Virus record (IMG/VR): IMGVR_UViG_3300046328_000001
Span: 1 to 24,565 of that record
Length of the DNA: 24,565 nucleotides
Reading direction: 5' to 3' (one strand)
Source of the DNA: a virus
The notes beneath the pieces are model-generated. The model did not search any database. It saw only the letters and a list, made by a program, of their open reading frames with translations, and was not told the origin of the DNA. Position numbers and translations under genes: made by a program. Every line of letters starts with the position of its first letter. The first letter of the stretch is position 1. Positions 18,520 to 24,565 of this stretch are shown piece by piece.

Positions 18520-19452
18520 ATGACTTCATTAAAGAAGCCACTAATCGCTATTGCCTCTGCAGTAGCACTTGTAACATCTGCTCTAGTAGCAGCTCCAGCT
18601 AATGCAGCTATCTCAGCAGCATTGACTGTGAACAACGTAGCAGTTACCGCTGCTGCCACTACCGCTGATCCAGTGCTACTTCCAGTTCCTGCAGACAATT
18701 CTGTAGATTCTGCTGACGCACTAAAGATCGTAGTAACTGTTGCTGCAAACACTGCTGTGTCTGCAACTGCAACTGGTGCTAAGATTGTTGCTGCAACTGC
18801 AACTGTTTCTGCTCCAGTAGCTGCTTCTGCAGGTGCTACAACCTTCTCAGCTAACTCTGGTTCAGGAACCACTGTTACCTTCTATGTATTCACTACCTCA
18901 ACTACTGCTGGCTCAGTTGTAGTTACCGTTGGTGGAGACACAACTACTTATGTAGTTAAGGGTACTGCAGGTGCTGCCTACAACCTAGTTGCATCTGTTC
19001 CAACCGTTGCTGGCTTGGGTGTAGATGTTAACTTTACCGCAACCGTAACTGACGTATTTGGTAACGCTGTAACTAACGCAGCAATCACCACATCAGTTCT
19101 TCGTGGTACAGTTAAGACTGTTCTAACCTACGATGCAACTGACAAGCGTTACGAGGGTGTAATCACCACTCCTGCTGAAGCAGGTGCTGTTGCTGGTATT
19201 GCTACAATCTCAGCTACTGACGTAACTGGTCTAGCAAAGGCTGTTAAGGAAGTTTCTTTCTCAATCGCAGCTGCTGACCTAACAGTCCAGGTAACTACTC
19301 TACAGGCAGAGCTAGCTGCTGCTAAGGCTGACCTTGCAAAGGCTCAGGCTGACCTAGCTGCTCTAAAGGCTGCAGAGATCAAGAAGTATAACACCCTTGC
19401 TACTAAGTGGAACAAGAAGTTCCCTAAGTCAAAGGTTGCACTTCGCAAGTAA
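18520..19452 (+). CDS. secreted surface protein: signal peptide, Ig-like domain, coiled coil
   Basis: 310 residues. A Sec signal peptide occupies residues 1-29 (basic KK, hydrophobic core, ending APANA before A30). Residues about 31-155 are Ala/Thr/Val-rich beta sequence; about 155-250 contain a bacterial Ig-like (Big) pattern, NFTATVTDVFGNAVTNAAIT. Residues about 252-283 form a heptad coiled coil (VTTLQAELAAAKADLAKAQA), and the end is basic (YNTLATKWNKKFPKSKVALR). The end resembles what I remember of surface proteins of freshwater Actinobacteria, which I cannot verify here. It has its own promoter and is followed by a hairpin. Not a typical virion, lysin or holin gene; a host-surface, decoy or superinfection-exclusion role is inference. 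Confidence 0.7.
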   Translation: MTSLKKPLIAIASAVALVTSALVAAPANAAISAALTVNNVAVTAAATTADPVLLPVPADNSVDSADALKIVVTVAANTAVSATATGAKIVAATATVSAPVAASAGATTFSANSGSGTTVTFYVFTTSTTAGSVVVTVGGDTTTYVVKGTAGAAYNLVASVPTVAGLGVDVNFTATVTDVFGNAVTNAAITTSVLRGTVKTVLTYDATDKRYEGVITTPAEAGAVAGIATISATDVTGLAKAVKEVSFSIAAADLTVQVTTLQAELAAAKADLAKAQADLAALKAAEIKKYNTLATKWNKKFPKSKVALRK

Positions 19453-19940: not shown

Positions 19941-22968
<3,028 letters not shown>

Positions 22969-22982
22969 TCTTTGTTTCTTAG

Positions 22983-23010
22983 AGGGGATCTAGCATTGTC
23001 TAGGTCCCCT
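22983..23010 (+). terminator. rho-independent-type terminator after nrdF
   Basis: An 11-base-pair stem (22983-22993 with 23000-23010, one T-G wobble), six-base loop CATTGT, followed by TTTCC. It starts 15 bases after the stop of the conserved nrdF tail, i.e. spaced for the full-length gene. Confidence 0.75.
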
Positions 23011-23028
23011 TTTCCATTAGGTAAATAA

Positions 23029-23037
23029 TGGTATAAT
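23029..23037 (+). promoter_or_regulatory. extended -10 promoter for the last gene
   Basis: TGGTATAAT, a TGn extended -10 (TATAAT at 23032-23037). The -35 region is poor, which is common with extended -10 boxes. A start near 23044 gives a leader of about 32 bases with AGGAGG at 23062-23067. Confidence 0.65.
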
Positions 23038-23075
23038 AGCTTTGTTAGACATCCACACCCCAGGAGGCGTTAACA

Positions 23076-24565
23076 ATTAAACTAAATAAAGTAGGAAGAT
23101 TACTTTTAGCTGCGGCTCTAGCCATAGGTCCGCTGTTTTTTGCTACTCCAGCCCACGCAGAAGACGTGCCACCATTAGTTGTCGTTGTTTCTGAGCCAGC
23201 AGCACCTGTTGTGACGGTAGTAGAGACTCCTGGCGGAGATGATTCATCCTATCAGGTCCCACTGACAACCACAGTGACCTTTGACGGTGTGCAGTACGAC
23301 GCTGTTTATGCAACCACCAACTCTGTAATTACCTTTGGAAGACCAGATGGCACTTATTGGACATATCCGTCAACTCCATCAATTTCTCTATACTCAATGG
23401 ACTGGGTTGTCTATCCAAACGCACGTGCTGATGAGCACCTAACTATTGCTGCATCAGATGGCGGATTTCAGGTAGATATTTCTGCTCGTCCCATTTGGCT
23501 TCAGAATGCTACAGAGCCTACCAATATTAATATTGTTGCTGCCATTAACGTTGATGGTACAGTTGCCATATCATATTCTATTACTGGCCCTACATACGAT
23601 GGTCAAACAAGAACTGGTGTCACACTAACAAGTGGTCAGGTGGTAACCCTTGAGGAATATGGTGTTGTACAAGTTGAGACTCCACCTGTTCTAACTCCAG
23701 AGCCTGTTATCCCAACCCCAACCCCCATCCCAGAACTAACGGTAGAACCTACACCAAGTCCAACTCCAGAGCCAACAGTAGAGCCAACTCCCACACCTAC
23801 GCCTACAGTTGAGCCAACCCCTACTCCAGAACCAACACCTATTCCTACCGTAGAGCCTACACCCACCCCAGAACCTAGTCCAACAACCCCACCACCTTTT
23901 ATTCCTCAAGGAGCTACGCTTCTTGGTGAAGGATCAAGCATCCAAGTAGTGGCCCCAGAAGGTCAGCGTATTGTAAGCATCACAGCCTGGTACGGAGATC
24001 CAAACGATGGCTCTCGTGGCATTGAGGTATCTTCTAATCTAACTCAGCTAGCTTCTGGGCAGACTTCAGTAACCATTGACTCAAACAATATGTATGGTGA
24101 TCCAGCCCCAGGAACAGTAAAGACACTTATTTTTGTTGTGAACTATGAGACAATCCCAACACCTGTAGAGCCCACTCCTACGCCAGAGCCAACACCAACA
24201 CTTCCACCAGTCGTAATGCCAGAGCCTACGCCTACTCCACAGCCACCAGCACCAGAGCCTCAGCCTACCCCAGAGCCATCTCCAGCACCAAGCCCAGAAC
24301 CTGCTCCACCAGTGGTAGAGCCAGAACCTCCTGTTGTAGAGCCAGAGCCACCTATTGTAGAACCTGAACCAGAGCCAGCCCCAGAACCACCTACAGAACC
24401 TGAGCCACAACCTGAACCTGAACCAGAGCCTCCTGTAGAACCAGAGCCAGCCCCTGAGCCTGCTCCAGAGCCACCTACAGAAGAAGCGGCGGTAGAGCAG
24501 ATCTCAAATCTAGTAGAGACTGCACCAGAAGATCTAACAGATGCACAGGTAGAGCAGCTTGTAGA
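23076..24565 (+). CDS. secreted Pro-Glu-Thr-repeat protein with ATT start, 3' partial
   Basis: The frame is open from 23049 to the end of the window (about 496 residues from 23076). There is no in-frame ATG, GTG or TTG before the signal peptide; ATT at 23076 is eight bases after a perfect AGGAGG. The signal peptide is [20 protein letters not shown] then FATPAHA, cleaved before EDV. Next come a beta domain (about 50-200, with [18 protein letters not shown] recalling nidogen-like secreted domains), a Pro-rich linker (about 202-274), a second beta domain (about 275-359), a second Pro-rich stretch (about 360-468) and an acidic helical start ([20 protein letters not shown]). Long Pro/Glu/Thr linkers are typical of proteins that span the actinobacterial cell wall. 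The function is unknown; a surface role is inferred. Confidence 0.7.
23679..23897 (+). repeat. Pro-Thr-Glu codon repeat, first block
   Basis: About 73 codons of imperfect PTPEP / VEPTPT units, encoding the first linker of the secreted protein. Codons for Pro and Thr vary, so this is a protein-level repeat rather than a recent DNA tandem expansion. Confidence 0.8.
24153..24479 (+). repeat. Pro-Glu codon repeat, second block
   Basis: About 109 codons, first PTPEPTP-like, then [12 protein letters not shown] and PAPEP units, encoding the second, more acidic linker of the secreted protein. The reverse strand is free of stops only because of the repeat composition. Confidence 0.8.

Follow-up and report, generated by a model that had tools for sequence, protein, structure and literature searches.

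An ATT start codon behind a strong leader in an actinophage gene for a predicted exported protein, and its retention among relatives

A gene for a predicted exported protein almost certainly begins with ATT in the phage DNA surveyed here, and near-cognate starts of the ATH type (ATT, ATC or ATA) are retained at the same place in many divergent relatives, behind a strong leader. The window, i.e. the whole stretch of DNA that was analyzed (24,565 nucleotides), is a 24.6 kb virus record of IMG/VR with 43% GC, which carries tail, replication, terminase and nrdI-nrdE-nrdF genes. The reading favoured here, at a probability of about 0.62, is that the AUU start throttles translation in an IF3-sensitive manner downstream of a promoter and a Shine-Dalgarno sequence (SD) that are both strong, in the first gene of a transcription unit of an actinophage.

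The gene lies on the plus strand. An in-frame TAG stop at 23046-23048 is followed by the SD AGGAGG at 23062-23067 (predicted anti-SD pairing of -10.3 kcal/mol) and, 8 nt past it, by the ATT at 23076-23078, just as the sequence-only reading had laid it out; the second codon is AAA (ATT AAA, 23076-23081). The frame 23049-24563 is open and exits the end of the window, which truncates the coding region (23076-24563) after 496 codons. The earlier claim that no usual start is available was also borne out, because ATG, GTG and TTG are absent in frame from the upstream stop to the signal-peptide core and the earliest in-frame NTG is the GTG at 23166, beyond the signal peptide. A textbook signal peptide directly after the ATT was found as described: it spans 23076-23159 (28 residues, the first read as fMet), has a basic n-region, a hydrophobic core and an AHA cleavage motif, and is kept in relatives. 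Going by these sequence features, the gene is almost certainly translated from the AUU, which is presumably decoded as fMet.

Relatives were gathered by protein searches in IMG/VR; they lie on separate metagenome contigs and amount to 161 distinct family genes. A gene was assigned to the ATH class when the stretch from the upstream stop to the hydrophobic core had no NTG and an ATH followed a strong SD. This class holds 78 of the 161 (the window gene and 77 other distinct homologs, none of which has a usable ATG, GTG or TTG), while 74 have an NTG in that interval. The other 9 fit neither description; they include L010 (ATC) and L081 (ATA), whose ATH fell outside the cut-offs. The 78 starts are ATT (68), ATC (5) and ATA (5), each followed by an AAN codon (AAA in 65), and the SD is strong and properly spaced, mostly 5-9 nt from the ATH, though the ATH calls themselves required an SD. 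In L025, L042 and the L275-L282 group the ATT opens the reading frame directly after a stop, so that an upstream in-frame start is impossible there. ATT, ATC or ATA is retained across domains down to about 30% identity, and this keeping of the start type in divergent relatives was seen both in the domain comparison and in a search by leader alone. In four genes (L274, L287, L303 and L304) the position of the ATT of their close relative L291 is taken by GTT, behind a different hairpin leader (GGCATATATTGCC-TTGGAG); this GTT may be the start, GTC and GTT starts being known from Streptomyces sigR.

Other open reading frames of the same loci (n=351) start with ATG (285), TTG (38) or GTG (28), and only two ATH candidates, both weak, were noticed among such frames. 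The family leaders having TGnTATAAT (n=92) are followed by ATT (56), ATC (5), ATA (2), TTG (26), GTG (2) and ATG (1). The difference in ATG use, 1/92 against 285/351, gives a Fisher P of about 5e-50, a value which overstates the evidence as the counts share ancestry. On the domain tree 15 switches between ATH and NTG are needed, at least 9 of them forced by well-supported branches, so the contrast between ATH and ATG does not go back to one event; from these comparisons the start type looks independent of domain ancestry and tied to the leader and signal-peptide module. Whole clades retain ATH despite ATG being one base change away. Near-cognate starts are favoured and not essential, since some relatives have TTG after this leader and L365 has ATG. 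TTG is tolerated by IF3 far better than ATH.

The leader was also searched alone, as the DNA pattern TATAAT-N6-GTTAG-N4..14-CTAAC-NAGGAG, which is blind to the start codon, in IMG/VR and in 257 Gb of bacterial and archaeal genomes. It matched 106 stretches in IMG/VR and only 3 in the bacterial and archaeal genomes, these being unrelated (two before ATG, one before no gene). The phage leaders fall into two classes. Class A (53 distinct) leads to ATT (46), ATC (5) or ATA (2). Class B (about 21 distinct, two of them cut by contig ends) reads TCT-ATG-CAA-TAA-A-TTG/GTG or nearly so: a mini-ORF of one or two codons precedes a weak start, which lies 13-14 nt past the SD. The mini-ORF (ATG-CAA-TAA, ATG-CGA-TAA or ATG-TAA) precedes TTG or GTG in L092, L093, L202-L208, L217, L232 and others; L140 and L192 have class B leaders without the ATG of the mini-ORF. 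ATG was the main start behind none of the phage leaders from the pattern search, in either class, and the single exception with the same leader type, L365, came from the protein search. The proteins behind these phage leaders form one similarity group with varied middle parts, a few short fragments aside.

The feature thus belongs to a conserved leader, beyond the original observation of an ATT. After nrdF the window has, in order, a terminator-like hairpin, an extended -10 element, the AGGAGG, ATT AAA and the signal peptide. The hairpin, at the boundary of nrdF and leader (22984-23009; 10 bp, T tail 23010-23013), resembles an intrinsic terminator; the fold of 22980-23020 has -19.8 kcal/mol (z -4.1), and the consensus terminator scan left it unflagged, its T run being short. 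The extended -10 element, TGGTATAAT, lies at 23029-23037, TGnTATAAT being found at the same place in the 92 family leaders; the promoter scan found no consensus -35 upstream of it. Transcription usually begins 7 nt past the -10 element, and by this spacing the start is predicted at G23044. If so, the 5' end of the mRNA would be formed by the left arm of a hairpin that adjoins the SD with its right arm. Of 62 non-redundant leaders, 43 have a perfect 5-bp stem whose first base is at +1 to +4, against 2.6 on average and 8 at most in shuffles. As 20 of the 62 had been retrieved through the GTTAG/CTAAC pattern itself, the other stem types are more telling: besides GTTAG/CTAAC, compensatory types GTTAC/GTAAC, GTTAT/ATAAC, ATTAG/CTAAT and AGGCA/TGCCT occur at the predicted +1, a position that follows from the spacing. 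In the window itself the stem is altered. The left arm GTTAG is present at 23044-23048, but the window, like its near relative L372, lacks the CTAAC arm that usually precedes the SD, and the best partner, TTAAC at 23070-23074, lies 3' of the SD and pairs no better than shuffles (z -0.57). The median anti-SD pairing is -8.3 kcal/mol in the ATH relatives against -5.8 kcal/mol in neighbouring ATG genes, a comparison biased by the SD required for ATH calls. No Rfam family was matched in the window.

Behind the signal peptide there is a family-conserved all-beta domain followed by Pro-rich linkers (23157-23690; AlphaFold2 mean pLDDT 90.9). The domain has no fold match in PDB, and its close structural matches are only uncultured phage proteins, one of the best of which carries a TerB-like annotation; a nidogen-like fold, the first impression, was dropped as unsupported by any PDB fold match. 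The protein gave no significant match in Pfam or PHROG and was placed in no known family, and no GenBank phage record matches the conserved domain. Complete relatives are mostly about 450-830 aa long and carry Pro-rich or acidic linkers, and many have a basic RRK-type tail at their end. The stop lies -7 to +1 nt from the next start, overlapping or abutting it, in 52 of 57 complete ATH genes; the next gene usually codes for a membrane protein of about 58 aa, and translational coupling downstream is probable. A holin-like gene (weak PHROG lysis match) lies close downstream in L164, L121, L020 and L022. From this arrangement the product would be exported and probably membrane-anchored, and co-produced with a small membrane partner in the neighbourhood of lysis genes. 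The phage origin supposed for the gene is strongly supported, and because WhiB is encoded in 19 of 23 carrier records the carriers are taken as actinophages. A second gene for an exported protein, at 18520-19452 between terminase and nrdI, has an ordinary ATG with the SD AAGGAG and is conserved in relatives; it has no Pfam or PHROG match.

A conserved weak start behind a strong promoter and SD points to deliberate throttling and not to a sequencing error. In the mechanism proposed, the ATT gene would head its own transcription unit beside lysis-type genes. Its strong extended -10 promoter and 5'-terminal leader with strong SD would give abundant mRNA and good 30S binding, and the near-cognate start (AUU, AUC or AUA) would slow the last step of initiation. 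IF3 would destabilise the 30S complexes on such starts, and output would then stay low and depend on the IF3 level or the initiation state of the infected cell. Where the stop overlaps the ATG of the next gene, the small membrane protein would probably be throttled too. A 5'-terminal stem protects mRNA, and the hairpin may in this way add to mRNA stability. That the weak start was selected for its weakness is likely judging from its conservation, and that initiation at the ATT is IF3-sensitive in the host is probable by analogy with known genes. Low or IF3-dependent translation, as the sequence-only reading had proposed, would agree with close precedents (PMC5472188, PMC13009471). Regulation of the output during infection is doubtful. 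It is equally tentative that the whole module (extended -10, 5'-terminal hairpin, strong SD, ATH and signal peptide), widespread in actinophages, might be an IF3-sensing switch which times a surface protein together with the membrane partner coupled to it, probably in connection with lysis.

Some other explanations have to be weighed. That the ATT stands for an ATG through faulty sequencing or assembly has a negligible probability: there is a lesion elsewhere in the window, where nrdF has lost 38 nt at 22857-22860 relative to L020 and L022, which shifts the frame and removes the normal C-terminus (a true lesion or an assembly fault), and the relatives still refute such an error at 23076. Dozens of independent contigs have ATT, ATC or ATA there, including the near relative L003/L372 (85% identity), and the closest relatives (79-86% protein identity), on contigs of their own, also have ATT, which excludes chance and sequencing error. 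The concern about a variant or error, raised when only the sequence was read, is thereby removed, and the comparison with related phages proposed at that time gave ATG in just one leader-sharing relative (L365). Initiation further upstream, or termination and reinitiation at mini-ORFs with the ATH as a mere restart site, would suit the class B leaders, where ATG-CAA-TAA or ATG-TAA stands just before TTG, as well as L025, where ATG-TAA abuts the ATT, and others with GTG-NNN-TAA; it is improbable, as the stretch from the predicted mRNA start to the ATH is free of ATG, GTG and TTG in all frames in 39 of 47 distinct class A leaders, and the SD sits mostly at the short spacing given above.

Translation would not be weak at all if a variant initiator tRNA or initiation factor coded by the phage read ATH efficiently. 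Many carrier-phage loci, e.g. L020, do have tRNA genes in clusters, but these are mostly Asn-GTT, Asp-GTC, Thr-TGT and Gly-TCC, with few for Met or Ile; no recurrent unusual initiator tRNA was found alongside the ATH gene in the carrier loci, none of 34 carrier records (which may be fragments) has an IF3 domain, and other genes start with ATG, all of which makes this explanation highly improbable. The main rival to the IF3-sensitive model is a constant low output without regulation, in which the weak start fixes the level of a protein harmful in excess and this level stays unchanged through infection. It would fit the mildly weak TTG or GTG that substitute for ATH behind the same leader, and the staphylococcal cvfC1, whose AUU gave about 10% output with no effect of condition (PMC13009471). 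A weaker promoter or SD would cut output just as easily, yet both stay strong, and the clades that keep ATH are one base from ATG; we consider this rival rather unlikely.

To our knowledge, conserved non-NTG starts are known for a mere handful of bacterial genes. infC starts with AUU in E. coli and AUA in S. aureus, and pcnB of E. coli starts with AUU. The phage gene is like infC in its ATH start behind an SD and like pcnB in its ATH start, and unlike infC, which autoregulates IF3, it codes for a probably exported product in carrier records (n=34) without an IF3 domain. In Streptomyces, infC starts with ATC, and sigR with GTC (GTT in two species) behind the SD AGGAGGTG and is repressed by IF3 (PMC5472188). 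The likeness to sigR is close, both being actinobacterial systems with a non-NTG start behind an extended SD, kept across species, and a next gene that is translationally coupled, in the phage probably so; sigR differs in being a chromosomal sigma factor with GTC/GTT and not ATH, and IF3 repression was measured for sigR and is proposed for the phage gene. In S. aureus in poor medium, AUU and AUA starts with extended SD gave about 10% of the output obtained with AUG (PMC13009471), and the staphylococcal cvfC1 (AUU) and ccpN (AUA) resemble the phage gene in a conserved ATH start with a strong extended SD, cvfC1 also being first in its operon. Unlike the phage gene, cvfC1, ccpN and pcnB are bacterial genes, and their descriptions, in the portions available, do not include a 5'-terminal hairpin module. 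The open-access literature searched gave no relevant example of a phage ATT/AUU start.

Gene callers limited to ATG, GTG and TTG would place the start past the signal peptide (here at the GTG 23166), and with such calling exported phage proteins of this type would be missed or stripped of their signal peptides. A phage family in which dozens of lineages have ATT, ATC or ATA behind a strong leader offers a natural comparative test of weak-start selection.
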